Positions 16,937 to 62,251 of a stretch of 62,251 nucleotides of DNA are shown piece after piece. The position numbers and the translations under genes are program-made. This DNA is from a virus, in IMG/VR virus record IMGVR_UViG_3300035661_000066, positions 1 through 62,251 of that record; one strand, 5' to 3'. Each line of letters opens with the position of its first letter. Position 1 is the first letter of the stretch. The notes beneath the pieces are model-generated. The model searched no databases. It was not told the DNA's origin and was given only the letters and a program-made list of their open reading frames with translations.

Positions 16937-16959
16937 CCATTATTTTCAATTTGTGCACT

Positions 16960-21083: not shown

Positions 21084-21112
21084 GGTAAATCCTCAGCAGT
21101 TGATCCACGGAA

Positions 21113-23778: not shown

Positions 23779-24510
23779 CTAGAATTCACACTGGCCGCCG
23801 CCGTTGGTCTTATTGGCGGCGCGGTAGTGGCACCACCGGCACTTGTTGTTGGGGCGCGGCGCGAATACCTTGTCCTTGAACATCGGCGCTACCCGCTTCT
23901 CCCACAGCTTCTTCAGGCGAGCCACGTCCTTTTGGGTGTAGACCAGCGGCTCGTCCTCGAATGGGTAGATCATGCTGGCATCCAGGTAGACCAGGCGCGG
24001 GCGCACCTCCTTCAACCACGGCTTCAGCAGGAGGGCTGACAGGGCGTAGAGCTCCAGCTGCTCCACGTAGGCCTCATTCATCTCCTCACGGAACTTGCCC
24101 GTCTTCCAGTCGGTTACCACCAGGACGCCGTCCTGCTCCAGGTGGGCGCAGTCCAGCTTGATACGCACCCAGCAATGGGCCCAGTTGTCCCACTGGGTTT
24201 CATCCCAGGTCTTGGTGAAGGCCCAGTTGTCCTCCACGTGCATCGCATTGACCTTGGACTTGTAGAGCTGCTTGAGCTTTTTGAACTCAGTCTCAAAAGT
24301 CTTGAGCTCCTTGGGGATGCGGGCGATCTTCCCCTTGAGATAGTTCTCAGCCAGCTCGTGGATCGCCGCACCGCGGTCCAAGGCCTCGGAACCAGGTTCC
24401 TTGATGCGGTCGATGTGCTTCAGCTTGAACTTGCGCGGGCACTGCTTGTAGTCCTGGTACCGGCTGAACGACCAGCTGGTCAGGGGCTTGATGGGGATGG
24501 TACGCGCCAT
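23779..24510 (-). CDS. Cas4/AddB-like PD-(D/E)XK nuclease with probable Fe-S cluster
   Basis: This 243-residue protein shows SRYQDYKQCPRKF (first Cys), RGAAIHELAE, the catalytic core VVTDWKTGK (Asp and D-x-K), LELYALSALL (QxxxY-like motif IV), and a C-terminal CRWCHYR...C cluster. Four Cys would bind 4Fe-4S as in Cas4 and AddB. It likely processes ends during recombination or replication. Confidence 0.85.
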   Translation of the reverse strand: MARTIPIKPLTSWSFSRYQDYKQCPRKFKLKHIDRIKEPGSEALDRGAAIHELAENYLKGKIARIPKELKTFETEFKKLKQLYKSKVNAMHVEDNWAFTKTWDETQWDNWAHCWVRIKLDCAHLEQDGVLVVTDWKTGKFREEMNEAYVEQLELYALSALLLKPWLKEVRPRLVYLDASMIYPFEDEPLVYTQKDVARLKKLWEKRVAPMFKDKVFAPRPNNKCRWCHYRAANKTNGGGQCEF

Positions 24511-24532
24511 TACGTTCTCCAGGTATTAAAGA

Positions 24533-26461
24533 TCACAGGATGCGACCTTTTTTGTCGTAGTCTTTCAATTCATTCCAGTTGGTGTCGGAGACAGCGCCCT
24601 CACTCAAAATCGGCACATCAAACTCTACCGACTCCATGGCCTTGCGCAGCACCTCCATCTCAGGCTTCATGAACTTCTTGGGGACGCTGGCGGTAATTTG
24701 ATCGTGGACGTTCAGCACGATCTTGGCATCTGGTCGCTTGGTCTTGTGGTAGCGGATAATCGCTTCCTTGGTGCAGTCGGCAGCCGATCCCTGGATCAGG
24801 ATGTTCACGAGCTTGTAGTCGAACTTGCGAAGCCGCCCGTCCACCAGCTTAGGCGGCTCGCAGAAGTACTCGCGGCCACCCCAGGTGCGAATGGGCAAGC
24901 CATTGTCGGCACGGAGCTTCATGTCCTTGTACATGTCCTTAAGGCCCGGGTAAAGCTCCAGAATTGCCTTCTTCAGGTCACCGGCCTCCTGCACGGTCAT
25001 GTTGTTCTTCTCGGCCAGCTTGCCCACGCCCATGCCGTAAATGAGGCCCAGGTTCGTGTTCTTCACCGGCTTCCGATCGTAGAACTTGCCCATCAGCTCC
25101 AGCTCAGCCTTGGCGTAGTCGTGGAAGTCCACCCACGGATTTTCCAGGTACTTGGCCTGCAGTGCCCCACCATCAAAGTGGGCCAGGATGCGCGGCTCCT
25201 GCTGGGAGTAGTCGCGGTCGATGAAGACGTCACCTTTAAACGGGGTAATGTACCCGCGGCACTGTGGCAGTGGTGGCAGCCCGGCCAGCGCCGTCGGCAG
25301 TTTGGGTAGCTTCTTAGCCTCCTTGGGGTCACTGGTCTCGTGGGCGAAGATCGCCTTGAACTCCTTCGGCAGGTTCTGGAAGTTCGGTGTGGATGACAGC
25401 CGGCCCGTGCGGGTACCGCCACCCTCCTGGCTCTTGGTCTGATTCCAGGTGGTGAAGATCAACCCACCTGATAGCTCAGCGATCAGCAACCATGGGCGCA
25501 TGAAGGTGCCCAGGCAGGTCTTGAGCTGGGTGCGGTACTTGAGCACGGCTAGTAGAGACTTGTCCGTCACGCCCAGCAGCAGCGCCTCCTTGTTCGTCTG
25601 ATACTTGCCAGTTGGCGTTAGCGGCATCAGGTCGGGATCTGCCTTGCCAGCCTCGATCATGGCGTGGATCAGCTGCTCGCCCGAGTCCAGGTTCAGGTCA
25701 GCTGGGGCCTTAATGGTCTTAAGCACCCAGGCATCGAGCTTTGCCTGCCAGCTGGTATAGAGCTCCACGTCAGCCCGCAGCCTGGCCAAGTCCACCGGGA
25801 CCCCCTGGCGCTCCATCTCCAGCAGGATCGGCATCAGCTCCCGCTCACGGTCGTAGGCACGGAGCATCCCCCGGTCGCGGGTTCTAGGCCACAGCAGCTT
25901 GAAGATGCCCTCAGTGCGGTCCGTGTCGCCCTCCGCGTAGCGACCTACGAGGTCCGCTGGGGCGTAAGGCAGGTACTTCATGGCGTAATGGGGCGACTGA
26001 CGGGACTTGCTGAGCTTGACCCCGGGCACCGGCTGGTGGGCCAGCAGCCAGTCGACCACCTCGTCCTTCTCCTCCGGTGGCTCACCCAGCAGACGCTCGG
26101 CGGCCGGTTTCAGGCCCAGCTCCGTCTGATGCGGGTCGTCGAGGTAGAGCAGGAAGAGCGTGTCGTGGACCTGGCGCCAGTCGGGCACGGGCAGCCCAAA
26201 CTCGGTTTCGGCCACGTCCAGGTCGAACTTGCCATTCTGAAAGAGCACCCCATCTACGTGCGCGTACGCCTTGACCAAGGCCTCACGGGCCTCCGGCCAG
26301 GTGCAGTTGTTGCCCTCCAGGTGCCCCCAGGAGTAGTAGCGTGACTTCTTGCCAGGCCACTTGATGGAGACCCCAACTGGGACCGGTGGGTACTTTGGTC
26401 TCCCCTCAATGCCGAACGACTCGAAGTCGATTACCACCGGTTTTGGTTGCTTTTCTGCCAT
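24533..26461 (-). CDS. Family A DNA polymerase with 3'-5' exonuclease domain
   Basis: This 642-residue replicative polymerase has an N-terminal DnaQ exonuclease (Asp12, Glu14; NGKFDLD; YAEGDTD) and a polA domain: motif A DYSQQEPR with Asp417, O-helix KNTNLGLIYGMG (468-478), and motif C VHDQ with Asp587. Motif C is normally HDE; here Gln588 replaces Glu, and motif A reads SQQEP instead of SQIEL. No 5' nuclease domain is present. Proofreading looks intact. Confidence 0.95.
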   Translation of the reverse strand: MAEKQPKPVVIDFESFGIEGRPKYPPVPVGVSIKWPGKKSRYYSWGHLEGNNCTWPEAREALVKAYAHVDGVLFQNGKFDLDVAETEFGLPVPDWRQVHDTLFLLYLDDPHQTELGLKPAAERLLGEPPEEKDEVVDWLLAHQPVPGVKLSKSRQSPHYAMKYLPYAPADLVGRYAEGDTDRTEGIFKLLWPRTRDRGMLRAYDRERELMPILLEMERQGVPVDLARLRADVELYTSWQAKLDAWVLKTIKAPADLNLDSGEQLIHAMIEAGKADPDLMPLTPTGKYQTNKEALLLGVTDKSLLAVLKYRTQLKTCLGTFMRPWLLIAELSGGLIFTTWNQTKSQEGGGTRTGRLSSTPNFQNLPKEFKAIFAHETSDPKEAKKLPKLPTALAGLPPLPQCRGYITPFKGDVFIDRDYSQQEPRILAHFDGGALQAKYLENPWVDFHDYAKAELELMGKFYDRKPVKNTNLGLIYGMGVGKLAEKNNMTVQEAGDLKKAILELYPGLKDMYKDMKLRADNGLPIRTWGGREYFCEPPKLVDGRLRKFDYKLVNILIQGSAADCTKEAIIRYHKTKRPDAKIVLNVHDQITASVPKKFMKPEMEVLRKAMESVEFDVPILSEGAVSDTNWNELKDYDKKGRIL

Positions 26462-29511: not shown

Positions 29512-29898
29512 TTACAGCAGACCTTTCTTCTTCAATTGATTGCGATACCAGCTTGGGTAGCCTTTCTTGCCATCGTCAAGCTGGAACTGGGGTTGAATTA
29601 CTGCCCATACCTCCGCATTGGTCTTCCCAGCCAGCAGCAACTTGGTGGCGACGCTGGTGATGGTTTCAGACTTTGTGGCAGCGGCAGTGGCAGCTTTAGG
29701 AGCAGCTTTAAGCTCCACAAAGATGGCGCTGGTGGTCGGAATGCCGTGGCTGCTGTGCTTCTTCACGAAGGCTTTGGCAGCTGCCTCAGTATCGAACTGC
29801 TGAGCTGCATTGATGTCCTTGGTCACGTCACAGTTCTTAAACTTTGCATCATACTGCTTGATGTAGAACTTGCTCAGCTTATTTTGAATGACGAACAT
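29512..29898 (-). CDS. Small protein with WYRN C-terminal module, paralogue 2
   Basis: This 128-residue protein is the first gene behind early promoter 29939-29967. The N-domain (1-65) looks like a compact binding fold (FVIQNKLSKFYIKQYDAKF). After a short linker comes LLLAGKTNAEVWAVIQ, then FQLDDGKKGYPSWYRNQLKK. Strong early promoter and tandem paralogue suggest a role in takeover or DNA metabolism. Confidence 0.65.
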   Translation of the reverse strand: MFVIQNKLSKFYIKQYDAKFKNCDVTKDINAAQQFDTEAAAKAFVKKHSSHGIPTTSAIFVELKAAPKAATAAATKSETITSVATKLLLAGKTNAEVWAVIQPQFQLDDGKKGYPSWYRNQLKKKGLL

Positions 29899-29938
29899 GG
29901 TGTGAGCTCCTCAGCAGTGGCTCGTTGATCATGAGTCT

Positions 29939-29967
29939 ATTATAGTGGGTACCACCACGATTGTAAA
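29939..29967 (-). promoter_or_regulatory. Early sigma70 promoter, copy 3
   Basis: Minus strand: -35 TTTACA (29967-29962), 17-bp spacer, perfect -10 TATAAT (29944-29939). The leader is nearly identical to that of the 16908 promoter, including TGATCA and CTGCTGAGGA. Confidence 0.85.
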
Positions 29968-29993
29968 CTATTATTTTCACTAAATTGAAAATT

Positions 29994-36443: not shown

Positions 36444-36471
36444 ACTATAACCCGCCGCGCCAGTTTGTAAA
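36444..36471 (-). promoter_or_regulatory. Early sigma70 promoter, copy 4
   Basis: Minus strand: -35 TTTACA (36471-36466), 16-bp spacer, -10 TATAGT (36449-36444). The upstream A/T block (AAAATAATGG) matches promoters 16908 and 39924, but the leader is different and lacks the CTGCTGAGGA box. Confidence 0.7.
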
Positions 36472-36496
36472 CCATTATTTTCAAAATTTTGGCAAC

Positions 36497-36817
36497 TTAT
36501 AGCTGATCCACTGGGCGGCTTGAGATGCGGTAGTACCGCGTCCGCCCGATGGTCATGGTCTGCAGGCCTGGGACCTGCTGCCACGCCAGGTAGCGCCCCA
36601 TCGTCACGTGCATGGAGTTGAACCGCACCCCAGTCGCCTGCGCCAGCCGCTTGGTCGAGAACCACTGGTGGCGGTGGCTGCGCAGGAAGTGCTCAATGGC
36701 GTCACGGTGCGTGGGGCGACGACCTGGCTCGCCGGCGCGCCGTCGCTTGGGCACGGCCGGCTTAGGTACCACCGGCGACGGGAGCAGCTGCACGAGCTGA
36801 GCCAGGGCCAGGTTCAT
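36497..36817 (-). CDS. Putative helix-turn-helix protein
   Basis: This 106-residue basic protein has a Pro/Arg-rich N-terminal half and a C-terminal winged-helix-like domain (HRDAIEHFLRSHRHQWFSTK, then RLAQATGVRFNSMHVTMGRY). ATG 36817 overlaps the upstream stop. Probably DNA binding; possible regulator. Confidence 0.5.
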   Translation of the reverse strand: MNLALAQLVQLLPSPVVPKPAVPKRRRAGEPGRRPTHRDAIEHFLRSHRHQWFSTKRLAQATGVRFNSMHVTMGRYLAWQQVPGLQTMTIGRTRYYRISSRPVDQL

Positions 36818-39621: not shown

Positions 39622-39884
39622 GACCAGTCTCCCAGGAGCCAGGCGCCGCCCAGCTCGCGCAGCGTGCGCTTGAACATGACGGGACGGCAGGCATCGGCAT
39701 GGAGCCGGCTGATGAGCACGCGTGGGCGCAGCTTGAGGCGGTAGGCCTCAGCCAGGCCCTGGGCCCGCCACCAGGCGTTGGAGGTGGGGTTCGTGCACCA
39801 GGCGCGGTTGGCGTGGTCGACCGGCCAGCGAGGCGCCTGTGATGCACGCGGCCGACTGGTCTTGAAGAGCTGGAGCAGCTTCAT
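39618..39884 (-). CDS. Promoter-proximal basic early protein
   Basis: This 88-residue, Arg/Trp-rich protein is the first gene after promoter 39924-39952. It contains NPTSNAWWRAQGLAEAYRLK and KRTLRELGGAWLLGD. Possibly DNA or RNA binding. No family recognised. Confidence 0.55.
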   Translation of the reverse strand: MKLLQLFKTSRPRASQAPRWPVDHANRAWCTNPTSNAWWRAQGLAEAYRLKLRPRVLISRLHADACRPVMFKRTLRELGGAWLLGDWS

Positions 39885-39923
39885 GGTGATGATCCTCAGC
39901 AGTAACTCGTTGATCGTAAATCT

Positions 39924-39952
39924 ATTGTAGCTACCTGACCGCTAGTTGTAAA
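39924..39952 (-). promoter_or_regulatory. Early sigma70 promoter, copy 5
   Basis: Minus strand: -35 TTTACA (39952-39947), 17-bp spacer, -10 TACAAT (39929-39924). The leader contains CGATCAACGAG and CTGCTGAGGATC, as in the other copies. It lies directly after the primase-helicase stop. Confidence 0.75.
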
Positions 39953-39961
39953 CCATTATTT

Positions 39962-42094
39962 TCAATATTTCGCCACTTTTTTGCTTGGTGCCCGTCCCTT
40001 GGCAACGTCGCCCCGCAGGTGCTGCGCCAGCTCAGCTGCTGTGGCGTTGGCCCACCGGTCGACGTGGCGGATGATGTAGTAGCGGCCCTGCGTGCCATCC
40101 GCCAAGCGCAGCGGCGCCCCCTGCAGCGCCTGCAGCACCCCAGCGCGGCGCAGCTCGCGGCCCAGGCCGTTGGCGGTCGTGCGGGTGCGGCCCTCGGGGT
40201 CGTACAGCGCCAGCAGCTCCTTGCCGGTGTAGAGGTCCGGCTTCAGCTTCACGCCGCCCACCATCAGCACGGCGTCGGGCGTGGCCAGCAGGTTCCGGAC
40301 CCAAGCCCCGAGGTCGGACTGCCCGTCCGCGATCATTCGCTCCTTGGCGTGCGTCTTCAAGGCGCGGGCGGCTGGGTTGAAGCCGGTCAGGTCGAGCTTC
40401 AGGAGGTAGTCAAACACGTGGGACGCCCCGCCTGCCTTCAGCCACTGGTCATACATCTGATAGAAGGCCTCGCTCAGGGGCGGGGCCACCACCTCATGGA
40501 TGAAGAAGCGGCGGTCGTCGTCCTCTAGGAAGAAGGCGTCTGGCTGGTTGCTGGTGAAGTAGTAGTTGATGCAGTCCGGCACCACGTAGGTGGGGACGTA
40601 CTTTGCGTTCACCCGCAGCTCCCGCTGGGTAATCAGCTTCTTCAGGAAGTCGGCCTCCTGCCGCTTGTCCGACCCGGTGACGTCGTCCCCCATCACGAAC
40701 TGCTTGCTCTCAGCCCACTCGTTGAAGGAGCCGTGCAGGTCCTGCTGCGTGATCTCGGTGAAGTTCTGCCCGTAGATGTTCGCCAGCGTGTAGCCGATCA
40801 GGGACTTGCCGGTACCGTGCCGGATGCCGTAGATGACAGCTGACGAGTAGAGCTTCGTGCCCGGGTGCTGCAAGGGGTACGCGCACCACTGCAGGAACCA
40901 CTTAAGCGCCTCGGGCTCGGCCCCTTGGAACAGGTGCTCCAGCAGCTCGATGAAGGGCTTGTGGTTGCCCGGCACGGCCTCGCAGCCCCAACCCGGCCAC
41001 AGGTTCAAGCGGCTGCCGCCCGTGGGGCTGTCCACCAGGGCCCCGGCCCCTGGCTGGTAGGTCAGGGCCTCGGCCTCCTTGCGCAGGGGCCAGCTAAGCC
41101 AGGCGGCCGCGGCGGAGACGGGCTTGTAGCTGATGGAGCCGTCTGGCTTGAGCTGGCGCTCCTGGTAGCGCTTCGCCGCCTCCGCGTGCTCCTTGAAGGC
41201 GCCAGGCGGCAGCTTCTGCTTGGTGACCGTGTTGAAGATGAGGCCCGGGCTCTGGATGTACGTGTACTTGTCGTTCAGGCTGAAGAGCACGCTGCTCAGC
41301 CCCAGGGGCTCGGCCTCATGAAGCAGCTGGTGCAGCTGGTCGACCGCGTTGGGGCCGGCATGGACGAGGAAGTCGTCCAGCCCCACCTTGTCCAGGTCCT
41401 CGAGCGTGGGCAGCAGCACGAGGTAGACGAACGCGCCCCGCTGCACGAGGGCCTCGGCCAGCTCGCGGAGGGCGTGGGCGATCATGACGTTCGTGCTGAG
41501 GTCAGAGTCGAAGCAGATGTAGACGCAGCGCCGGGCCCACAGCACGAGGTCGAGGCTGGGCAGCCACTCAAGGCCCAGCTTGTGGCTGCGCCAGTTGTAG
41601 ACGCCGCCCAGGCCGATGGTGGGGAAGCCCTCCTTGCAGGCCTTGGCGGCCTTCAGCTCGCCCTCGGTGAGGATGATGGGGATGCCGACGTCGACGGCGA
41701 TCTCGGCCCAGTTCTCGTTCCGCGGGTAGTAGGCGACGGGGGCCGTGTTGGGCTCCTGGGTGTAGCGCTGCTGCTTGCCCCGGGCCTGCTCCTCGAAGCC
41801 CTGCGGCTGCTCCAGGTAGCGCAACCGGTAGAACGGCGGGCACCCCGGCCAGTCTGACAGGGGGTTACCCAGAATGTCATGATAGGGGATGCGCATAGCC
41901 ACAACAGGCTTAAATGATTTGTGGAGTTCCTGGGCCATTCCTGTGTCAAGAACTGACATGTTTAGGGTACTTGCGTCGTCCAGGTCCAACCCGGAGGTGG
42001 CTAGCTTGGCCTCGAATAGGTCCTGGGCCCGTTGGCTGATGGCCCGCCGGGCGGTGGCTGGTTTGGTGGCAGTGGTGGATTTTTTAGCAGGCAT
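39962..42094 (-). CDS. Bifunctional primase-helicase (DUF3854 / SF3 helicase type)
   Basis: This 710-residue protein has an N-terminal TOPRIM-like primase region (ILTEGELKAAK, 141-151; CFDSD, 194-198) and a C-terminal SF3/D5-like helicase: Walker A GIRHGTGKS (423-431), FVMGDDVTGSDK (Walker B) and a sensor-like TSNQPDAF. It would prime and unwind at the phage origin. GAGG precedes its ATG. It is the main gene of the first early operon. Confidence 0.85.
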   Translation of the reverse strand: MPAKKSTTATKPATARRAISQRAQDLFEAKLATSGLDLDDASTLNMSVLDTGMAQELHKSFKPVVAMRIPYHDILGNPLSDWPGCPPFYRLRYLEQPQGFEEQARGKQQRYTQEPNTAPVAYYPRNENWAEIAVDVGIPIILTEGELKAAKACKEGFPTIGLGGVYNWRSHKLGLEWLPSLDLVLWARRCVYICFDSDLSTNVMIAHALRELAEALVQRGAFVYLVLLPTLEDLDKVGLDDFLVHAGPNAVDQLHQLLHEAEPLGLSSVLFSLNDKYTYIQSPGLIFNTVTKQKLPPGAFKEHAEAAKRYQERQLKPDGSISYKPVSAAAAWLSWPLRKEAEALTYQPGAGALVDSPTGGSRLNLWPGWGCEAVPGNHKPFIELLEHLFQGAEPEALKWFLQWCAYPLQHPGTKLYSSAVIYGIRHGTGKSLIGYTLANIYGQNFTEITQQDLHGSFNEWAESKQFVMGDDVTGSDKRQEADFLKKLITQRELRVNAKYVPTYVVPDCINYYFTSNQPDAFFLEDDDRRFFIHEVVAPPLSEAFYQMYDQWLKAGGASHVFDYLLKLDLTGFNPAARALKTHAKERMIADGQSDLGAWVRNLLATPDAVLMVGGVKLKPDLYTGKELLALYDPEGRTRTTANGLGRELRRAGVLQALQGAPLRLADGTQGRYYIIRHVDRWANATAAELAQHLRGDVAKGRAPSKKVAKY

Positions 42095-42299
42095 AACGGG
42101 ACCTCACGCGGGGCGTGATTAACAGGTGGAGGTGGAGCGATGCAGCAAGCAGGAAGGGGACCGGCGCCAACACGACTTGCTGAGGATCGTTGACACCACG
42201 GGAGACGGCCTGGCAAGAAGGCCTGAGAGGTGCCGCGAGGCGCCGGTCAAGGGCATCATAGCAAGGCTGGTTGCAGGTGTACATGGCGAAGGTCCCCAT
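42084..42299 (-). CDS. Doubtful small gene or structured leader before the primase
   Basis: An open frame of 71 codons fills the 204-bp gap between two genes. Its ATG 42299 overlaps the upstream stop by one base, but it has no ribosome site and a composition unlike its neighbours. The stretch also has a 10-bp inverted repeat (42159-42168 / 42239-42248), so it may be a structured leader instead. Confidence 0.25.
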   Translation of the reverse strand: MGTFAMYTCNQPCYDALDRRLAAPLRPSCQAVSRGVNDPQQVVLAPVPFLLAASLHLHLLITPRVRSRYAC

Positions 42300-42715
42300 C
42301 ACAGCTTGGGCAACTTGGTGGCGAACTTGGCCAGGACGCTGGGGCTGGCCTTCCAGATGGTGGCAATGTCGCCGTCCTCGAGCAAGATGGCGTAGTGGCG
42401 GCCACCCAGCACGCGCCGCCGCAAGGGGGTCAGCTCCAGCTTGACCAGCTGCAGGGCCTCCTCAGCGGTCAGCAGGCAGGCGGTATCGCTCTCGCGGTAG
42501 TGCACCAAGAACTCGTGCCGGCCCTTGACCGTGGCGTAGGCGCCGCCACCCGGGTGCCAGTTCGTGGCGCGCCGGTCAGCCAGCAGGTCCTCAGCCGCCA
42601 TGCCCAAGGCCTGCTGCATGGCTTTGATCTTTTCGCCCACCGCTTGGCGCTTGGCGCGGGGCATCTGGTAGACAATGTCGCGAAAGATCTGCTTCAGATT
42701 TTCGGAAATTTCCAC
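42299..42715 (-). CDS. First early-operon protein, unknown
   Basis: This 138-residue protein starts at GTG 42715, with AGGAG 6 bases upstream. A longer reading from TTG 42742 would begin at or before the predicted transcript start. The N-terminus is helical (ENLKQIFRDIVYQMPRAKRQ); the rest is alpha/beta. As the first gene of the leftward early transcript, it may be a regulator or take part in replication initiation. No family recognised. Confidence 0.6.
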   Translation of the reverse strand: MEISENLKQIFRDIVYQMPRAKRQAVGEKIKAMQQALGMAAEDLLADRRATNWHPGGGAYATVKGRHEFLVHYRESDTACLLTAEEALQLVKLELTPLRRRVLGGRHYAILLEDGDIATIWKASPSVLAKFATKLPKL

Positions 42716-42744
42716 AAAACTCTCCTGTAAGATAGAACACAATT

Positions 42745-42773
42745 ATTATAGTTATTTCAAGCACGCCTGTACA
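42745..42773 (-). promoter_or_regulatory. Leftward early promoter of the primase operon
   Basis: Minus strand: -35 TGTACA (42773-42768), 17-bp spacer, perfect -10 TATAAT (42750-42745). The transcript should start near 42738, 23 bases before GTG 42715. It lies at the edge of the divergent switch region. Confidence 0.75.
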
Positions 42774-42848
42774 TGGTGGAAACTTGGCTGCTTGGGGCTT
42801 GGGGCTTGGCTCTCAGTGGGGTGGCGAAAACGACCAAAAATGGGTCCC

Positions 42849-42986
42849 GCTACACATTTTGCTACAGCTTCACATTTTTCCTTTTATTCTTCTATCCCTC
42901 TCTGTAGTCTCTATATATTTAACTTACACTACCGTTAGCCGACCATCAATATAGAAAAAATGTGAAGCTGTAGCAAAATGTGTAGC
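42849..42986. repeat. 138-bp inverted-repeat element, copy A
   Basis: A 31-bp arm (42849-42879, beginning GCTACACATTTTGCTACAG) is exactly complementary to 42956-42986, around an A/T-rich 76-base core. Copy B (54166-54303) has identical arms, and the copies differ at about 10 of 138 positions. Each arm contains spaced GCTACA and CATTTT boxes like binding-site repeats. It lies between the divergent early and late operons. Role unknown: origin, switch/operator, packaging or mobile element are all possible. Confidence 0.9.
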
Positions 42987-43090
42987 GGAGCCAAAAATGA
43001 CCGAAAGCCTTATCAGGTAATGCTTGCGGGCCCATTTTGGCCTCTTTTTCAGCTGCTACACAATTTCTGGAGGCCGTCTTTTGTCCCCCC

Positions 43091-43205
43091 AAAAAGCCCG
43101 AAAATGAGCGCCAAAATGAGGTACTTTTTGGCTCACTTTCGGCTCAAAAATGGCGAAAAACAGGCAAAATTCGGCCCCAAAAGCCCAAAATTGACCTCTT
43201 TTTCG
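43091..43205. other. Phased A-tract (probably curved) DNA in a gene-free region
   Basis: About eleven runs of 3-5 A or T recur every 10-12 bases (centres near 43093, 43103, 43115, 43127, 43138, 43148, 43158, 43168, 43181, 43189, 43201), close to one helical turn. Such phasing bends DNA. No convincing gene lies in 42716-43429. Another AAATGTGTAGCGGA copy occurs at 43397-43410, inside a small TCCGC/GCGGA hairpin (43391-43409). Sits just before the small terminase gene. Confidence 0.7.
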
Positions 43206-43429
43206 CCTGCTTTAGCCCCACCTTGGCGGCTCCACCGACCCTGCTTCACCGACCAAAAAGCGGCATTTTGCAGTACAATGAACCTCAATGCTGAGGTAAT
43301 TTCGGCCTGATGCCGCCCCACCACCGGCCTCACCAACGAGCCGTGAAACAGCTCAAATCAGCGCCGAAATAAAACTCTTTGTTTACAAACTCCGCAAATG
43401 TGTAGCGGAATTTTTGGGGTCTAACTACC

Positions 43430-44053
43430 ATGACGACTGCTGCTCCGAAGCGCGACGCTGCCGCGATCAAGCGCGTAAAAGCGGACAAGGGCGATTCGCC
43501 CACCAAGCAAAAACGTGAAAAACGCGTGGTTCTACCAACTGGCGACGAATGGCGCTCGGTGCGCGCTGAGTTCGAGGCTGGCGCCACCGTGCAGAACCTT
43601 TCGCTCAAGTACAACATCTCCGCTACAGCCATTAACAGGCGCCGAAGCATTGAAGGGTGGCGCCAAGATGCTGAAGCGGCGATTAAAATGCGGACTCAAG
43701 AGCGCCTTGCGAAAATTCAAAAATCGCAAGATCCCGTCAAAAGGGATGAGGCCATCGAGAATGAAGCGCAAGCCCGCGCGAACGTCATTCACCGCCATCG
43801 ACGTGAGTGGGACACCCACGCGGTGCTGCTCGACGAGACCTTTGCCCGACGCGATTTCAACCTCGCCAAGCTCACCAAAATCACCGCCGAGATTCTAATG
43901 ATCCGTCAGTCGGGCGAGCGCAAGGCCTGGAACATCGATACCGTAACGCAAAACATCAACATCAACGCCACCGGGGTTGGTGACGCTGTGAACCTGAAAG
44001 GACTATCTGACGATGAGCTCGCCGTTATCATTCGTGGCGAAGGCCAGAGCTGA
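43430..44053 (+). CDS. Terminase small subunit
   Basis: This 207-residue protein has a basic N-terminal tail and an HTH domain (EFEAGATVQNLSLKYNISATAIN, about 48-70; then RRRSIEGW), followed by a helical oligomerisation region. It overlaps the large terminase by 41 bases. It would bind the packaging start site, possibly in its own gene or the curved region just upstream. Confidence 0.8.
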   Translation: MTTAAPKRDAAAIKRVKADKGDSPTKQKREKRVVLPTGDEWRSVRAEFEAGATVQNLSLKYNISATAINRRRSIEGWRQDAEAAIKMRTQERLAKIQKSQDPVKRDEAIENEAQARANVIHRHRREWDTHAVLLDETFARRDFNLAKLTKITAEILMIRQSGERKAWNIDTVTQNININATGVGDAVNLKGLSDDELAVIIRGEGQS

Positions 44054-45569: not shown

Positions 45570-47017
45570 TGTTCGGAAATGACAACGCCACCACCGGCCA
45601 GGGGTACGGCACCATCAATGTTGAGGGCACGGGCCTTGGCTCACCGCTGCAGCAGGTGCTAATGGCTGACAGCATCGAGCCGGGCTCTGACCCCAGCTAC
45701 GAGCTCTGCAAGATCATCTACACCTACCACCCGCTGGGTGCCAAGATGGTCGACCGCCCCATCAAGATGGCCATGAGCCAGAAGCGCACGATCACCGTGC
45801 AAGGCAGCCCGGAGGAGATGGTCAAAGATGCCTTCAACCGTGAGTGGGAGAACCTGGGCTGCGACCAGCTGATCGCTAACACCATGCGGCTGAGCCGTAT
45901 CTACGGCATCGCCTCGCTGGTGTACGGCGTAGAGGGCGAGGAGACCGATCGGCCGGCTGAGCTCAAGGACCTGTACGCCAAGAAGATCTACTTCAACGTC
46001 CTGGACCCCCTCAACACGGCCGGCTCCCTGGTACTGAACCAGAACCCCACTGCCGTGGACTTCCAGAAGCGAGGTGACATCACGGTGGCTGGTAAGACCT
46101 TCCACCGCTCCAGGGCCTGCGTGATCATGAACGAGGAACCAATCTACATCGAGTTCACCACCTCCGCCTTTGGCTTCGTGGGTCGCTCGGTCTACCAGCG
46201 TGCCCTCTTCCCGCTCAAGACCTTCGTGCAGTCCATGCAGACGGACGACATGGTGACGCGCAAGGCGGGGCTCCTGATCGCCAAGATGAAGCAGGTGGGC
46301 TCCATCACGGACAAGCTCATGTACGCCATGGGCGGGGTCAAGCGCCGGTTGCTCCAGCAGGCCAAGACGGACAACGTGCTCAGCATCTCAACTGAGGAGT
46401 CCGTTGAGACGTTGAACCTGCAGAACGCCGATACCGCCATGGTCGTAGCGCGCAAGAACGTGCTGGAGAACATCGCGGCAGCTGCCGACATGCCGGCCCA
46501 GATCCTGAACAACGAGACGTTTGCTGAGGGTTTTGGGGAAGGCACCGAGGACGCCAAGGAGGTGGTACGCTACTGCCACGGCGTGCGGAACGACATGCAG
46601 CCGCTCTACGACTTCCTGGACAAGCTGGTGCGCTACCGCGCCTGGAACCGGGACTTCTATGCCCGCGTGCAGGCCGAGTTCCCCGAGTACAAGGAGGTCG
46701 AGTACGAGACCGCCTTCTTCCAGTGGTACAACAACTTCGAGACCACGTGGCCCAGCCTGATGGAGGAGCCGGAGTCCAAGAAGCTGGAAAGCCAGGAGAA
46801 GAAGCTCAAGGCGCTGACCGAGCTGCTGGTCGTGCTCATGCCCACCGTGGACCCGGGCAACAAGGCCAGGCTCATCGAGTGGGCGATGGACAATTACAAC
46901 GAGCTGAAGCTCCTGTTTCCGCAGCCCATGCTCCTGGACCTCGAGGAGCTGCAGGAGTACCTAGCCAACCTGCCCCAGGACGAGGCTGTCGGTGACCCGA
47001 AGGACCTGCGCCTATGA
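45569..47017 (+). CDS. Portal protein (DUF1073 family)
   Basis: This 482-residue protein shows the DUF1073 portal pattern: VDRPIKMAMSQKRTI, RLSRIYGIASLVYG, VLDPLN, RKAGLLIAKMKQ, and ADMPAQILNNETFAEGFGEGT. It forms the dodecameric DNA channel at the head vertex. It overlaps both the terminase and the minor head gene. Confidence 0.9.
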   Translation: MFGNDNATTGQGYGTINVEGTGLGSPLQQVLMADSIEPGSDPSYELCKIIYTYHPLGAKMVDRPIKMAMSQKRTITVQGSPEEMVKDAFNREWENLGCDQLIANTMRLSRIYGIASLVYGVEGEETDRPAELKDLYAKKIYFNVLDPLNTAGSLVLNQNPTAVDFQKRGDITVAGKTFHRSRACVIMNEEPIYIEFTTSAFGFVGRSVYQRALFPLKTFVQSMQTDDMVTRKAGLLIAKMKQVGSITDKLMYAMGGVKRRLLQQAKTDNVLSISTEESVETLNLQNADTAMVVARKNVLENIAAAADMPAQILNNETFAEGFGEGTEDAKEVVRYCHGVRNDMQPLYDFLDKLVRYRAWNRDFYARVQAEFPEYKEVEYETAFFQWYNNFETTWPSLMEEPESKKLESQEKKLKALTELLVVLMPTVDPGNKARLIEWAMDNYNELKLLFPQPMLLDLEELQEYLANLPQDEAVGDPKDLRL

Positions 47018-47826
47018 GCCAGCTGCGGAAGGTCATGCAAGCCGCCATCCAGGACCTGCTGGCCCATGGCTTCGACAGCGAGGCGCGCATGGAGCACTGG
47101 GTCAGCCAGCTAAGGACGGCCATCCGGGCGGACCTGGTGCCTGAGAGCCAGGTCAACGCCAAGCTCACGCGCCTGTTCGGGCAGCTCTTTGCCCAGCAGG
47201 TCGGTAAGGGGCGGGTGCTGAAGCTGCACCAGGGACTGAGCCGCTTCACGCTGGACCAGCTGGCCCCGCGGCTGCACCACGAGCTGGACCGGCGCATCCT
47301 GGCCAGCGCCAACCTGATCAAGCTCAACCGGGCTCGAATGATGGAGGAGACGGTCCAGCGCTTCGCCGGCTGGTCCACCTCCATCCCACCCGGAGGCACC
47401 CGCGCCATCAAGCTCAAGGACGTGACACCTAACTTGTTGAAACCGTTCAACAAATTGCCCTTCGAGGAGCGCCGGGTGCACATTGATCAGGGGCACAAGC
47501 TGATCAGCGACATCAACGACATCATCGCCAGCGACAAGGGGGCCATCGCGCAAGTTTGGCACTCCCATTGGCGCCGACCGGGTTATAATTACCGCGTCGA
47601 CCACAAGGAGCGTGACGGCCTGGTGTACCTGATTCGGGGGAGTTGGGCGCACCAGGAGGGCTTGGTCAAGGCAGGGCAGGCAGGTTACAGCGACCAGGTA
47701 ACCAAGCCGGCAGAGGAGGTTTTCTGCTCGTGCTACGTCAGCTACATCTACAACCTCCGCGACCTCCCGGCGGATATGTTGACAGCGAAGGGGCGCGCCA
47801 AGCTCCAGGAGGTCAAAGCGCGCTAA
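47014..47826 (+). CDS. Minor head morphogenesis protein (SPP1 gp7 / Mu gpF-like)
   Basis: This 270-residue protein has a helical N-terminal half and a C-terminal head-morphogenesis domain (RVDHKERDGLVYLIRGSW ... VFCSCYVSYIYNLRDLP). It overlaps the portal stop by 4 bases. The family assists portal incorporation and DNA ejection. Confidence 0.8.
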   Translation: MSQLRKVMQAAIQDLLAHGFDSEARMEHWVSQLRTAIRADLVPESQVNAKLTRLFGQLFAQQVGKGRVLKLHQGLSRFTLDQLAPRLHHELDRRILASANLIKLNRARMMEETVQRFAGWSTSIPPGGTRAIKLKDVTPNLLKPFNKLPFEERRVHIDQGHKLISDINDIIASDKGAIAQVWHSHWRRPGYNYRVDHKERDGLVYLIRGSWAHQEGLVKAGQAGYSDQVTKPAEEVFCSCYVSYIYNLRDLPADMLTAKGRAKLQEVKAR

Positions 47827-51300: not shown

Positions 51301-52111
51301 GGGCAACGCGTACGTCAGCGGGCAGCTGCAGGCCGCACAAACCTACCTGGGCAGCAAGCCATGGGCGCAGTCGGCAGCCCCAGCCACGTTGGGGGACGCG
51401 CCGTACTACGACCCGGTTAACGGCGTGTGGGCCGTGGGTGCACCCAGGGTTGGTGGCCTGCCGGTACCACAAAGCACCTTGGCTTCCCCAGCCGATGACT
51501 GGAAGGTGCTGACGTACTTCAACGGGCTGCTGACGATGGGCTACCCGACGATCAAGGGCGCCCCAATCAGCGTAGACGGCATCATCGACCAGGACACGCT
51601 GGAGTACAACGCCGGCACGGGTACCTGGTACCGCAACACGGCGCGGGGTTCGGTATTTGCTCAGTACTCCAGCGCTGGCTTTAGCGTACCAGATTCTACG
51701 GATACGCTTGTTATCTATGACACTGCCGACGAGCTGTATAACTTCAACGCGGCTGCCACCGGCATTGCGTACTCGCCCTACACGTATGGCTTCTACAACA
51801 ACACCCAGCAACGAATCACCATCACCGTTTCCTACCTGATCAGCTACGAAACCAACTCAGCTGGGCATCGATTTGGCTGGATCAGCTTCAATGGCTCAGG
51901 TGCGGAACGGCTGGCATACAGCACGATCAATGCCTGCTCCGGTGACATCACGACCGTAGCCGGGAGCGCGACCATGACCCTAGGCGTGGGTCAGTACTTC
52001 CAAGTCTATACCTGGCAGACCAGCGGCACCACCTTGACCGCTAACGCGGGTGGCGCTGGTGGGCTCTCTGCCGGGTACGGTGGCAACATCCAGATCACGA
52101 GGATCAAATAA
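48353..52111 (+). CDS. Giant fibre/tail-spike-like virion protein
   Basis: This 1252-residue protein is the longest in the genome. It is rich in Thr, Ser, Gly and Asn with repeated beta domains. Near residues 845-925 it has an FCCH-like module (NLVVGGYLIIQGAAFSGNNG). The last 150 residues (from about 1100) look like a C1q/TNF-type jelly-roll tip (QRITITVSYLISYETNSAGH). It is probably a receptor-binding fibre encoded inside the head module, followed by two chaperone-like genes. Confidence 0.65.
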   Translation: MSNFDPRTYANGITYTGRQTVIASGQPFTTFAAMDAWSQTHASELLNNPVFVTLATVTADPDTTKIGTYEWAGPDLTYTAGGWVFFTGLDASDIKRLYESNPNTNAFTNPDNATVGSVQALAAGVIPQASSGALTPSGLTRTPGGQMLGASMDMITSDIPMQLPDGGALQVGNWDFSNGGSIIISTELASGRKFYPVGYELTSSGASTAWREKFGPFTTAPSPVAATQVFSGQTLQFSITSTDRGNRNRYTFKVAPNATAATSCNLQVRVTSFTHDPPIFDYMRSTGGVGFDIPANPTGSPVNLQVNLPVPAFFTDGQVLFVTLTAGTGTLSLMGDVLAGQNVPYFEIFGQQSVLTTIADLADIPAAQVQADWTQANNALPSFIQHKPTALSAFTNDSVVGSIQAGTNVTVDTTNPRSPIISATGGGSTLAIRFFTDASSTLTASAVKAALPTANTVNTWDASQLNTLTTDFTSVSGARFVWFAIPSAEQITTLGISSDGGTIFTGLGPAFKFAIDYSGVNFNVYCTTSSFNFPVGPYRIRFTTAQFVGTGGLTYVSTPASQELTIGTGDSRTITKSGLTLVGGKVPSTFVGVNLQAFTGQVDLKTQANWQQYRFQRLQFSGSDGALRGIYTLPDISAGSSWLNVGDWVEVINIGPGNYNCQIATYNVSQGFTGALSSGGNILLGVSTTRVYRFTYTGNATNWNVTQLTVSGLGGPAESNTPPWENPLPSQNYWLPKPIGQGLITPYDVWLTGGPCVVNVPFVDVGNGVIPSSPASAVKWTFNDNVGACVFYRQHSGDQNFPYVVIDQYGLTVDDTAALAYLTGVVAVPGYQGQVQAPGVSYNVLAIRSIAPGITSEVWLDQATSTTNLVVGGYLIIQGAAFSGNNGLFQIEALGVDSGFLKVQYVNPSSDPAIDEGDGTTAICQTGVQLFWTTVADQVTSSSVAIGMQYYIDSGRTTLYSGINTSAINTWLSYTYTTVQAGAGNAYVSGQLQAAQTYLGSKPWAQSAAPATLGDAPYYDPVNGVWAVGAPRVGGLPVPQSTLASPADDWKVLTYFNGLLTMGYPTIKGAPISVDGIIDQDTLEYNAGTGTWYRNTARGSVFAQYSSAGFSVPDSTDTLVIYDTADELYNFNAAATGIAYSPYTYGFYNNTQQRITITVSYLISYETNSAGHRFGWISFNGSGAERLAYSTINACSGDITTVAGSATMTLGVGQYFQVYTWQTSGTTLTANAGGAGGLSAGYGGNIQITRIK

Positions 52112-52725
52112 TGACGACCATCAAATACGCGGCGATCACCACGGACAACAACTCCGTGGGGCTTGTGTCGTACTACAACACAGCTGCCGGGCCATTCACC
52201 GACTTCCAGGCTGCCTACCACGCAACCAACCCCAACCAGCAGCTGGTCGACATCGGCCAGTCCAAGTTCCCTGAGGGCCAGGGTTGGTCGGAAACCGTTG
52301 TTGCTTCTCAAGGTTCCGGTGTCAAGCAGTATCGGCCAAAGGGGAACATCTTCCAGACCATCGACACTGTTCGAACAAAGGTGGTCCAGCTAGTCATCAA
52401 CAAGATGCCGTACTTCGAGTACTCGGGAACCGTGACGTTCAAGGGTAAAACATTTGCGCGTGACCATGAGACCCGTGACGACATTGTGCTGCTGGCGAAT
52501 ACCGTGTCCATCTCCAACTCATTTGCCACCGAGTTGCTGCCCTTGCGCGTGCTGGCGGATGACAACACCGAGGTCAGCATCGACACCATCCATGAGGCGC
52601 AAGACTTCGCGCTGTCGATGCTGTCCCCACTTAAGGGGGTCTACGCAGCTGAGGCCGACCAGGTAGCCGCTATCATGGCTATGACCACCATTACGCAACT
52701 GGTCCAGTACATCGACCCACGCTAA
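52111..52725 (+). CDS. Fibre-associated protein, DUF4376-like, paralogue 1
   Basis: This 204-residue protein overlaps the giant fibre gene by one base (TAATG). It has a DFQAAYHATNPNQQL N-region, a central GKTFARDHETRDDI segment like the DUF4376 tail-fibre domain, and ends AMTTITQLVQYIDPR. The next gene is a diverged copy. Probably a fibre chaperone or small fibre. Confidence 0.6.
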   Translation: MTTIKYAAITTDNNSVGLVSYYNTAAGPFTDFQAAYHATNPNQQLVDIGQSKFPEGQGWSETVVASQGSGVKQYRPKGNIFQTIDTVRTKVVQLVINKMPYFEYSGTVTFKGKTFARDHETRDDIVLLANTVSISNSFATELLPLRVLADDNTEVSIDTIHEAQDFALSMLSPLKGVYAAEADQVAAIMAMTTITQLVQYIDPR

Positions 52726-52736
52726 GGAGAGGCACC

Positions 52737-53333
52737 ATGACCAAGTACGCAGTTGTTTCAACCGACGGGACGAATCTCGCCATTGGCGCCGGGATCTACA
52801 CGGGCACTAGCTTCAGCGACTTCGCCAGTGGGTACGCCGACGCCCACCCGAACCAGCTTCCCATCGACATCGGGACCAGCCTCTTTCCGGCTGGTCAGGG
52901 CTGGATGCAAAGCACCGATACCAACGGGCGCGTGACCTGGGCGCCGCCCGGGAACCAACCCTACACCATGGCCCAGGTCCGGGCGGGTCTGCTGGCCAGC
53001 ATCATCGCCAAGACCCAGCAGCTCCTGAACAACGGGACGATCACTTACAATAGTCACCCGTTCCCGACGGACGCTGGCTCCCGGGCTGAGTTCGGGGTGC
53101 TGGCAGCGCTGGTGGGCACTAGCTCCACCGCAGCTTCAGCGCTGCTCCCCTATGCCATCACGTCACTAGATGGCACGGAGATGAGCTTGGCCACCACCGA
53201 CGAAGCGATGGCCTTTGCGGTGCCACTGGCGGCCCTGGCCAAGACCTACGACGCCGCGGAGGACGTGCAGGTGGCTGCAGTAACGGCCATGACCACCATC
53301 AACCAGCTGGTGAGCTACATCGACCCACGGTGA
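52737..53333 (+). CDS. Fibre-associated protein, DUF4376-like, paralogue 2
   Basis: This 198-residue protein is a tandem paralogue of the previous one, sharing the N-terminal layout (DFASGYADAHPNQLPIDIG), the central HPFPTDAGSRAEFG segment and the ending AMTTINQLVSYIDPR. Divergence between copies suggests different fibre partners. AAGGAG precedes its ATG. Confidence 0.6.
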   Translation: MTKYAVVSTDGTNLAIGAGIYTGTSFSDFASGYADAHPNQLPIDIGTSLFPAGQGWMQSTDTNGRVTWAPPGNQPYTMAQVRAGLLASIIAKTQQLLNNGTITYNSHPFPTDAGSRAEFGVLAALVGTSSTAASALLPYAITSLDGTEMSLATTDEAMAFAVPLAALAKTYDAAEDVQVAAVTAMTTINQLVSYIDPR

Positions 53334-53358: not shown

Positions 53359-53391
53359 ATAAAGCCGGCCGGGTATGTTTGCCGGCTTTAT
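53359..53391 (+). terminator. Intrinsic terminator in the fibre locus
   Basis: An 11-bp stem (53359-53369 with 53381-53391, ATAAAGCCGGC) with an 11-base loop is followed by TCTTTTC. It lies 26 bases after the second DUF4376-like gene and before a small structural gene. Confidence 0.75.
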
Positions 53392-53414
53392 CTTTTCAAT
53401 CAAAGGAGTACGGC

Positions 53415-53687
53415 ATGAATATCTCCATGACGTCGAACGTGACCAACGCGGCGATCATCAAGGGGCAGGGCACCGTCATGAGCCTGGTGGTGGGGGTGCC
53501 CGGCACCGCCAGCCAGGTGGCCATCTACGACGGGTTGTCGCCGGTGGGCCAGCCGATGATCACGCTCAACACCACCAGCCAGCTGGCCATCACCAACTGG
53601 GACCTGCGCTTCACCACGGGGCTGACAATTGTGACGGCTGGCACGGCACCGGCCAACCTGTTGGTGATCGCCCACAAGGGGTTCTGA
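53415..53687 (+). CDS. Small virion decoration-like protein
   Basis: This 90-residue beta protein (MNISMTSNVTNAAIIKGQG...) follows the terminator, with AAGGAG 6 bases before its ATG. The layout (GTVMSLVVGVPGTASQVAIYD) is typical of small Ig-like or cement proteins. No family recognised. Confidence 0.5.
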   Translation: MNISMTSNVTNAAIIKGQGTVMSLVVGVPGTASQVAIYDGLSPVGQPMITLNTTSQLAITNWDLRFTTGLTIVTAGTAPANLLVIAHKGF

Positions 53688-53689
53688 TC

Positions 53690-54076
53690 ATGAGCGCGAC
53701 CACGGACTGGACACAGGCAGCAGGTATCTGCTTTGTGGCTGACGGCAAGGTGCTGCTGATGCGACGCGGCAACGGTGGCGACCACCCGCTGGAGTGGGCC
53801 TTCCCTGGTGGTCACCACGAGCCAGGTGAGACCATCGAGGAGACTGCTCGGAGGGAGGCATTTGAGGAGACTGGGTTCCGTTATGAGGGCCCGCTGCAGC
53901 TGATCAGCCGCACCCGCATCGAGAGCACGGAGTTCACGACGTACCTGGCCCACGTGCAGCCGTTCCCGGTGGTGATGTGCCCCGAAAGCATCGATTACCG
54001 GTGGGTGGCACTGGAGGAGGTGCTGGACATGGCAAGGGCACAGCTGCCGACGGACCCAGAAGCGCTAGCTGGTTAA
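53690..54076 (+). CDS. Nudix hydrolase
   Basis: This 128-residue protein has a complete Nudix box GGHHEPGETIEETARREAFEETG (about 46-68), spanning the canonical G-x5-E-x7-REUxEExGU. The family hydrolyses nucleoside diphosphates linked to another group. Its place inside the late fibre locus, not the early nucleotide block, is unusual. Substrate unknown. Confidence 0.9.
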   Translation: MSATTDWTQAAGICFVADGKVLLMRRGNGGDHPLEWAFPGGHHEPGETIEETARREAFEETGFRYEGPLQLISRTRIESTEFTTYLAHVQPFPVVMCPESIDYRWVALEEVLDMARAQLPTDPEALAG

Positions 54077-54151: not shown

Positions 54152-54165
54152 GCGCGTTTTAGGTT

Positions 54166-54303
54166 GCTACACATTTTGCTACAGCTTCACATTTTTCCTC
54201 TATTTCTCTTATCCCTCTCTGTAGTCTCAGTATATTTTACTTACACTACCGTTAGCCGACCAACAATATAGAGAAAATGTGAAGCTGTAGCAAAATGTGT
54301 AGC
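54166..54303. repeat. 138-bp inverted-repeat element, copy B
   Basis: The same element as 42849-42986 and exactly the same length. The left arm 54166-54196 is identical to that of copy A, and 30 bases of the right arm (54274-54303) pair with it. It lies 28 bases before the protease-scaffold ATG, after a terminator-like hairpin. No TSD-like flanking duplication is visible at either copy. Together with copy A it brackets terminase through Nudix (about 11 kb). Confidence 0.9.
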
Positions 54304-54331
54304 AGTGAGATTAACTTGCAGAGGTCAATAA

Positions 54332-55870
54332 ATGGACAATTTCACCCTCCATCCGGGGCTGGTCCGCTGCGTGCTGGGGCCAAAATTTGCCCAGTCCACG
54401 TTGGGCCCCAACGTGACGGAGCTGGAGGTGGCCCAAGCCATCAGGGATGGCAAGTTGCCGTCTCCCCAACGGTTCCACAACGTCTGGCTCTTTAACCTGC
54501 GCATCACTGGCACGGGCACCGCCTATCGCCGGGCACTTGATGAGTTCGTCTATCGGCCACCGGAGAACTACCTGACTGATGAGTTCCTAGCTCGGTGCAA
54601 TGGGCTGACCGTCATCGTGGAGCATCCAGAGGAGAACTTGCTCAACAGTGAGCAATTCAAAAAACGCAACATCGGGGCTATAATGCTGCCGTACATCTCA
54701 GGTGACGAGGTGTGGGGCATCAGCCGGGTCTATGATGACGAAGCTGCTGAAATTATGGCCAAACACCAACTTTCTACGTCGCCCAGTGTCTACTTCACCA
54801 ACACCGATGACAACACTAAGCTTGACCTGGCTGACGGACGGTCGATCCTGATTGAAGGGAAGCCCGGGCTTCTTGACCACCTGGCAGTCTGCCTCCAGGG
54901 GGTTTGGGACAAGGGTGGCCCTCCAACCGGTGTCGATTCCGCCCACGCCAGCAGTGGCCAGGTGGACCAAGCGGGGGAGCTCCCCCAGTCTGAACGTACT
55001 ACATACGCATTGAAGGACAGTGCCATGCCAACTGAAAATGAGTCCAAGAAGGACAATCTGGAAGAAGTTGCCCGCAAGGACAGCGGCGATGGTGAGAGCT
55101 GGATGAAGCACCTGGAGAAGATCTCCTCGGCTTTTGAATCCCTCGCCAACCGCATTACCAAGCTGGAGGACGAACGCACCCGCGCCGATTCCGCCAAGAA
55201 GGATGAGGGCTCGATGCCGGGTGAAGCTCTACCGACCGCCGCCTCGATGGACGCCGACAAGGCCAAGAAGGACACCGAGGAGGGCAAAACCATGGCTGAC
55301 AAGGCTAAGAAGGATGCCGAGAAGGCGGCCGAGGAGGAAGCCAAGGCTAAGAAGGACGCTGAGGAAGAAGCCAAGCGCAAGGAAGAGGAGGAGGAGAAGG
55401 CTCGCAAGGACGCTGATGAGCGCATCGCTCGTCTCGAGTCCGCGGTGACCCACATCCCGAAGTCTTGCTTCGATGATGACTACAGCGAGATGGCCAAGCA
55501 CCAGGCGAAAGCTGATAGCGTGTACGCCGCCTTCGGAGACTCGGCCCCGGGTCCGCTGCGTGGTGAGACGCTGCAAGCCTACCGCACGCGACTGGCTAGC
55601 GGCCTGAAGAACCACAGCGAGGCCTGGAAGGGCGTCGACCTGTCCCGAGTGGACAGCTCGGTGCTGAGCATCGCTGAGGAGCAGATCTACGCGGATGCCG
55701 CCAAGTCGGCCATGAACCCGACGGATATTCCGGAGGACATGCTGATTGAGCGCACCCGCAAGGATGAGACCGGCCGCGTCATCAAGACCTTTATCGGCAA
55801 GCCGAGCGCCTGGACCAATCAATTCAAGGCGCCGCGCATGATTCAGCGCCAAATCAACAAGGGGGCCTAA
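54332..55870 (+). CDS. Prohead protease (DUF2213-like) fused to scaffold
   Basis: This 512-residue protein starts with a DUF2213-type prohead protease domain (about 1-190): VIVEHPEENLLN (candidate His) and QLSTSPSVYF (candidate Ser), then DHLAV. Residues 240-400 are a very Lys/Glu/Ala-rich coiled coil typical of scaffolds, followed by a basic C-terminal capsid-binding region. AGAGGT precedes the ATG. An internal ATG at 55025 probably gives free scaffold. Confidence 0.75.
   Translation: MDNFTLHPGLVRCVLGPKFAQSTLGPNVTELEVAQAIRDGKLPSPQRFHNVWLFNLRITGTGTAYRRALDEFVYRPPENYLTDEFLARCNGLTVIVEHPEENLLNSEQFKKRNIGAIMLPYISGDEVWGISRVYDDEAAEIMAKHQLSTSPSVYFTNTDDNTKLDLADGRSILIEGKPGLLDHLAVCLQGVWDKGGPPTGVDSAHASSGQVDQAGELPQSERTTYALKDSAMPTENESKKDNLEEVARKDSGDGESWMKHLEKISSAFESLANRITKLEDERTRADSAKKDEGSMPGEALPTAASMDADKAKKDTEEGKTMADKAKKDAEKAAEEEAKAKKDAEEEAKRKEEEEEKARKDADERIARLESAVTHIPKSCFDDDYSEMAKHQAKADSVYAAFGDSAPGPLRGETLQAYRTRLASGLKNHSEAWKGVDLSRVDSSVLSIAEEQIYADAAKSAMNPTDIPEDMLIERTRKDETGRVIKTFIGKPSAWTNQFKAPRMIQRQINKGA
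55025..55870 (+). CDS. Internal-start scaffold form (Nu3-like)
   Basis: ATG 55025 (codon 232 of the protease-scaffold) is in frame, preceded by AAGGAC at suitable spacing, and falls exactly at the junction between protease and coiled coil. It would give a 281-residue scaffold without the protease, as lambda Nu3 does from gene C. Inferred. Confidence 0.5.
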   Translation: MPTENESKKDNLEEVARKDSGDGESWMKHLEKISSAFESLANRITKLEDERTRADSAKKDEGSMPGEALPTAASMDADKAKKDTEEGKTMADKAKKDAEKAAEEEAKAKKDAEEEAKRKEEEEEKARKDADERIARLESAVTHIPKSCFDDDYSEMAKHQAKADSVYAAFGDSAPGPLRGETLQAYRTRLASGLKNHSEAWKGVDLSRVDSSVLSIAEEQIYADAAKSAMNPTDIPEDMLIERTRKDETGRVIKTFIGKPSAWTNQFKAPRMIQRQINKGA

Positions 55871-62081: not shown

Positions 62082-62251
62082 CCAGGAGCTGAGCAATGGC
62101 CAGTAACCCGCTTATCGCCCAGGGCACCCTGAACCGGCTGCGTGCGAGCGTCAACATCCCGGGGGTCCCCGCTTTGAACGTCACCGCCCCATATCTGGGC
62201 AAGGCCGGCATCTCGCTGGCCCTTGAAGGTGACATCACGACGCGCATCCCG
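62039..62251. repeat. Right copy of terminal redundancy
   Basis: Matches 1-213 apart from G at 62165 where the left copy has T at 127. This changes tube codon 24 from Phe to Val. Confidence 0.95.
62096..62251 (+). CDS. Tail tube protein, N-terminal part (partial repeat)
   Basis: The first 52 codons of the tube gene, repeated from 58-213. Codon 24 is GTC (Val), unlike TTC (Phe) in the left copy. The frame is open to the window edge. Confidence 0.9.
   Translation, partial: MASNPLIAQGTLNRLRASVNIPGVPALNVTAPYLGKAGISLALEGDITTRIP

Follow-up and report, generated by a model that had tools for sequence, protein, structure and literature searches.

The window analysed here is the 62,251-base phage record IMGVR_UViG_3300035661_000066 of the IMG/VR database (GC 61% genome-wide). 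It carries two near-identical 138-bp elements, A and B, which we predict with good confidence to be twin copies of an iteron-type replication origin. In both elements an AT-rich core is enclosed by inverted arms built from a 12-bp repeat (the iteron), and A is surrounded by additional copies of this repeat. The same architecture, composed of other repeats, recurs beside genes for DUF5906-type primases in other phages and in small plasmids, and a second phage, G026, carries a pair of them at equivalent positions. What can be read directly from the DNA is the architecture with its iterons, the crowding of iterons around A, the recurrence beside DUF5906 primases and the occupation of both slots in G026.

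Structure of elements A and B

An earlier note on this DNA had described two 138-bp copies with about ten differences and invariant 31-bp inverted arms. Coordinates (Table 1), length and the number of differences were confirmed: A and B differ at 10 positions (93% identity) and start 11,317 bp apart. The arms needed adjustment. Their perfect length is 33 bp in A (42847-42879 / 42956-42988, two flanking bases included) and 31 bp in B (54165-54195 / 54274-54304, one flanking base included), but the stretch identical at all four ends is 30 bp. In an inverted-repeat scan, A and B were the top two spaced inverted repeats of the whole 62-kb record, and GCTACACATTTTGCTACA, with up to 3 mismatches allowed, is present only at their four ends (0.03 expected). 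The core measures 76-78 bp and has an AT content that just 0.4-0.8% of 76-bp windows reach. Folding of the 138-bp element lies 12-14 standard deviations below that of shuffles.

None of the 10 differences falls within the 30 bp of arm common to all ends (P = 0.0025 under an even spread of differences); with arms taken as 31 bp, one does (P = 0.02). Because the differences avoid the arms, these look constrained or co-corrected. Selection on the arms, as proposed earlier, is one reading of the pattern and co-correction another, with moderate statistical support. Homology between A and B stops precisely at the arm ends, the 20-bp flanks being 5% and 35% identical. The core differences, judged by eye, do not consistently preserve pairing, and therefore no RNA-structure claim is made.

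The arms had been described as a spaced array of GCTACA and CATTTT boxes. Their real unit is the 12-bp iteron AAAATGTGWAGC, present twice per arm, which gives two inverted sets per element. Read outward, an arm is AAAATGTGAAGC-TGTAGC-AAAATGTGTAGC, or the mirror form of this, and holds one TGTAGC in addition to its two AAAATGTGWAGC copies. If one mismatch is permitted, the genome contains 11 AAAATGTGWAGC sites where 0.2 would be expected. A and B account for eight of them, and the remaining three all fall within 420 bp of A (Table 1). Such clustering around A alone would be expected of an iteron origin and not of a pair of transposon ends. The intergenic stretch 42990-43300 beside A is also dense in short repeats, for example CCAAAAATG, GCCAAAATGA and CAAAATTGACC, and could represent further control or origin sequence. 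GC skew of the record displayed only gene direction, with no origin signal on top.

Recurrence of the architecture in DUF5906 replicons

Searches with exact 20- and 30-bp arm patterns gave no copy in the genome collection, although diverged ends would escape such a search, and a single match in IMG/VR, one near-identical phage contig. None of the remaining capsid relatives has the arm sequence, though they share the head genes, and a DNA similarity search against phage records returned no match to this phage. With its arm sequence confined to a near-identical phage, the element would therefore be an orphan if judged by sequence alone. A profile search detected DUF5906 in four of 46 relative records (G019, G026, G013 and G035), and all four share the A/B architecture, with different repeats. 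In a spaced inverted-repeat scan of the relatives, G019 (L046) showed 24-bp perfect arms of repeated GTGGATCG around a 77-bp pyrimidine-rich spacer, directly 3' of its primase gene. In G013, ACAACTGTAATG-type iterons are clustered at the 3' end of the primase gene; in G035 a AGGTTCCA-type dyad was recognized by eye 3' of the primase. The earlier note had proposed searching related phages for the arms, with no occurrence in any of them counting against a function. As relatives lack the sequence yet show the architecture, that test is misleading.

G026 carries two elements (17873-18094 and 24466-24642) with the iteron TGTGTGCAGGT, alignable over their full length. The first occupies the divergent early/late region before the terminase genes, which is the slot of A. 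The second sits in the slot of B, with the head-morphogenesis gene on one side and the NUDIX-protease gene on the other. The earlier note was right that both copies stand directly ahead of late operons, and this is likewise true of G026, with unrelated sequence. Since the second G026 element precedes a fused NUDIX-protease gene, with one small open reading frame (ORF) intervening, duplication into the head-gene slot may have happened independently in this phage and in G026. When the G026 primase was used as a query for more two-copy phages, only G026 was returned.

The nearest primases are those of phages PW916 and AXL_3 (54-55% identity), viral contig L103 (53%), an environmental phage (52%) and viral contig L104 (47%). 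PW916 and AXL_3 have 132-133-bp imperfect inverted repeats with 64-65-bp spacers of 33-34% GC in the divergent region; neither genome paper mentions an origin. The divergent region of L104 contains six TGTAATAGCAG iterons that surround an AT-rich spacer, and the rest of its 61-kb record has none. As a check, ten further DUF5906 loci were fetched. In all five small DUF5906 plasmids among them, as well as in phage pAN, inverted iterons enclose a spacer close to the primase gene, those of plasmid pMP1 lying ~1.5 kb from it across the circle, and the region in Salmonella phage STP-3 was found by an inverted-repeat cluster scan. One such scan covered 98 loci, and of its 12 strongest clusters 10 belonged to DUF5906 replicons (Fisher P = 2e-6, with a threshold chosen after the list was seen and loci that are not a random sample). 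In these comparisons, the A/B architecture goes with the type of primase, not with the capsid genes.

The earlier note had left four functions open: a shared late-control site, an origin pair, a packaging signal or an element resembling a miniature inverted-repeat transposable element (MITE). The comparative evidence favours the origin pair, because the architecture tracks primase type and recurs in small plasmids without a late operon or packaging; the other three become less likely. Another candidate origin was noticed in L068, a relative without a DUF5906 match, where inverted CCTACAACCCCCTAC repeats surround an AT-rich core upstream of the terminase genes (positions 799-976). A core motif picked post hoc, TTACACTACC, matches A, B and L068 at 10/10 positions and G013 at 9/10; it is missing from the other candidate origins and hence was not used.

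Gene surroundings and proposed initiator

A is intergenic, between ORF 42299-42742 and the small terminase gene (which starts ~440 bp past it), and separates a leftward early operon with replication genes from the rightward late operon. The primase gene starts ~750 bp from A, which lies on its 5' side, and B is ~12 kb away. NUDIX and head protease form one ORF or abut in nearly all of 80 capsid relatives. Here they stand 256 bp apart with B in the gap, so that the split coincides with B. A terminator-like hairpin reported ahead of B was not borne out: there is only a weak inverted repeat, AGGAAACTT...AAGTTTCCT, and a scan for terminators detected none at this place. The adjacent genes 52111-52725 and 52737-53333 (39% protein identity), which belong to the extra genes ahead of B, form a tandem duplication.

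Table 1. Positions of elements A and B, outlying iterons and neighbouring genes in the window
Feature	Position	Strand	Remarks
Copy A, likely main origin (candidate)	42849..42986	none	arms 42849-42879 and 42956-42986; AT-rich core 42880-42955, 36% GC
Copy B, likely second origin, cis helper or fork barrier (candidate)	54166..54303	none	arms 54166-54195 and 54274-54303; AT-rich core, 38% GC
Outlying iteron AAAATCTGAAGC, 1 mismatch	42691..42702	-	inside ORF 42299-42742
Outlying iteron AAATTGTGTAGC, 1 mismatch	43055..43066	-	
Outlying iteron CAAATGTGTAGC, 1 mismatch	43395..43406	+	
Toprim (DUF3854)-DUF5906 primase-helicase, 710 aa, proposed initiator (predicted binding)	39962..42094	-	phrog_1156 DNA primase; PF12965 and PF19263 above cut-off
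Primase C-terminal 136 residues, winged-helix-like, proposed iteron reader	39965..40372	-	low-confidence model
Predicted sigma-70 promoter of leftward early operon, TGTACA-17-TATAAT	42745..42773	-	consensus match only
Small terminase subunit, opens late operon after A	43430..44053	+	phrog_1206
Head-morphogenesis gene (SPP1 gp7-like), upstream of slot holding B	47014..47826	+	phrog_324
NUDIX ORF, end 89 bp before B	53375..54076	+	
Head protease/scaffold-like gene, start 28 bp after B	54332..55870	+	phrog_6216 and phrog_530

The initiator is more likely to be the primase-helicase than the small proteins named in the earlier note. Its Toprim part has a DnaG-like fold (Z 11), and its helicase region matches the structure of the NrS-1 phage primase-helicase (E 2e-17). 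Structural matches of the C-terminal model are mostly winged-helix proteins (Z 4-6). The NrS-1 C-terminal region ranks first (Z 5.8), and PriRep1-dsDNA is among them at Z 4.4; a Foldseek search with this model gave no significant match. The AlphaFold model of the whole protein is poor (predicted local distance difference test score, pLDDT, 53).

On these grounds we infer origin activity for A and B, binding of their iterons by the primase of the window, and a role for B, along the following lines. The primase-helicase would bind the iterons, most likely through its winged-helix-like C-terminal domain, melt the AT-rich core, load itself as helicase and prime synthesis. A would be the main origin, as it lies beside the replication operon and has the extra outlying iterons. 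B would be an A-type origin copied into the head-gene cluster 11.3 kb away, where it might act as a second origin, as a cis-acting helper (as crr does in P4) or as a fork barrier that aids the switch to concatemers (the role proposed for oriR in SPP1).

Several other features of the record were observed. An exact 213-bp direct repeat at its ends (1-213 and 62039-62251) indicates a circular assembly or short terminal repeats. The genome is mosaic: the replication module is nearest to Stenotrophomonas/Pseudoxanthomonas phages, the head genes to a Klebsiella/Yersinia/Pantoea group and the large terminase to Microcystis and Pseudanabaena phages. A repeat family at 16865-16948, 29896-29979, 36465-36504 and 39881-39964, with minus-strand TTTACA-17-TATAAT and conserved flanks, probably comprises early sigma-70 promoters of leftward operons, the promoters being read by eye. 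A palindrome with 22-bp perfect arms (16604-16649) has a diverged copy 4.5 kb off (21098-21143). Both lie at gene-poor places in the leftward region and are possibly terminators or protein sites, though no T run follows them.

Alternative explanations and comparison with known systems

Four other explanations keep some weight, and they are taken up here in roughly descending order. A and B could be transcription-control sites, at which a phage regulator bound to the arms governs the operons that follow, such as the late packaging and head genes. Late genes do follow both copies, here and in G026, and a weak promoter-like TTGCTA-17-TATATT sits at the identical place in A and B. This match, however, is on the minus strand and points away from the late genes, and a plus-strand promoter is predicted in neither copy. 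Moreover, the architecture tracks primase type and not late genes, and it is also found on small plasmids that lack late operons, and immediately 3' of primase genes, which leaves this explanation improbable. We rate slightly lower a MITE-like mobile element that inserted twice by chance and has no role in replication. It would account for inverted ends at which homology ends exactly, and for B separating a gene pair that nearly all relatives have fused or abutting. A target-site duplication was looked for at A and B and none was found; the extra iterons cluster round A only, and G026 fills the same two slots with a different element. The exact arm search, which would miss diverged ends, likewise revealed no family of copies beyond the near-identical IMG/VR phage.

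Plasmid iterons often serve copy-number or handcuffing-type control, and A faces the early promoter. Both points would suit sites that bind the initiator for control only (copy number, handcuffing or autoregulation of the primase operon), while replication would begin at another place. We regard this as quite unlikely: no stronger candidate origin was found in the record, and origins in phage-inducible chromosomal islands (PICIs; PMC6092414) have this same layout of an AT-rich core enclosed by two inverted iteron sets. The lowest probability of the four, very small, goes to a packaging (pac/cos) or site-specific recombination site, as B is distant from the terminase, plasmids that are not packaged show the same architecture, and capsid relatives have the head genes but not the element. 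The region before the small terminase gene is a common location of pac sites, and A lies there, ~440 bp ahead of the gene; two near-identical sites could also recombine.

Certain observations weigh against the prediction of twin origins itself. The two-copy layout was found in just one other case, G026, and the strict boundaries of the A and B copies are also compatible with transposition. Among the ten further DUF5906 loci, Bordetella MW2 and BUCT791 lack a candidate and AAM22 is unclear; no dyad was found near the primase in L105 (37% primase). The winged-helix topology of the primase C terminus comes from a low-confidence model. Finally, origins of PICIs and Staphylococcus aureus pathogenicity islands (SaPIs) lie directly 3' of the primase gene, whereas A is ~750 bp 5' of it and B ~12 kb off; the directly 3' placement holds for G019, G013 and most of the small DUF5906 plasmids.

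Twin origins of the predicted kind resemble three described systems. PICI origins consist of an AT-rich region flanked by two iteron sets, and a pri-ori plasmid requires both parts (PMC6092414). A and B match the PICI/SaPI arrangement of an AT-rich core between inverted iteron sets, but here the module belongs to a whole phage, occurs in two copies and is associated with a Toprim-type primase. In P4, the winged helix of the alpha protein binds the origin repeats, after which unwinding and priming follow (PMC4234260). The P4 record annotates identical iterons at ori, in the divergent early/late region, and at crr; A and B are likewise two sites of which one is in a divergent region. In contrast to the near-identical 138-bp dyads A and B, however, ori and crr are unlike each other, and crr is 3' of alpha, ending 45 bp from it, while B is in the head-gene cluster. 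The P4 initiator unites primase, helicase and an iteron-binding C-terminal winged helix; of these, Toprim and helicase are supported here and the winged helix stems from a low-confidence model. Compared with A and B, the predicted dyads of PW916 and AXL_3 share the divergent position of A but have other, imperfect iterons and a single copy.

SPP1 has two origins ~13 kb apart, of similar organisation, with repeats and an AT-rich region (PMC6316719). Its oriR belongs to the late region, where it shares a segment with three moron genes (ORFs 8-10); gp7 stands on one side of these and the scaffold gene gp11 on the other. Arrest of forks by gp38 at oriR has been proposed as the start of concatemer synthesis (PMC6316719). 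As far as the description in that paper allows the comparison, the slot of oriR is equivalent to that of B. SPP1 differs in using gp38, gp39 and gp40 (a DnaB-type helicase) and direct repeats, where the window has a DUF5906 primase-helicase and inverted repeats, and its oriL is inside the initiator (gp38-type) gene, whereas A is intergenic. It is a tentative and rather doubtful idea that unrelated tailed phages converge on a second origin between gp7-like head-morphogenesis and scaffold/protease genes, and that the initiator-bound copy would be a programmed fork barrier converting circles into packageable concatemers.

Origin annotation is rare in phage genomes. An AT-rich core enclosed by inverted iterons, close to a DUF5906 primase, has now been seen in whole phages and small plasmids and offers a signature by which origins can be proposed from sequence for phages, satellites and small plasmids alike. 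The paired layout, which this phage and G026 show with different iterons and which resembles that of SPP1, makes it directly testable why some phages keep two origins. As A and B lack at least one defining feature of each known system, we describe A and B as working like the PICI, P4 and SPP1 origins, not as members of any of these systems.
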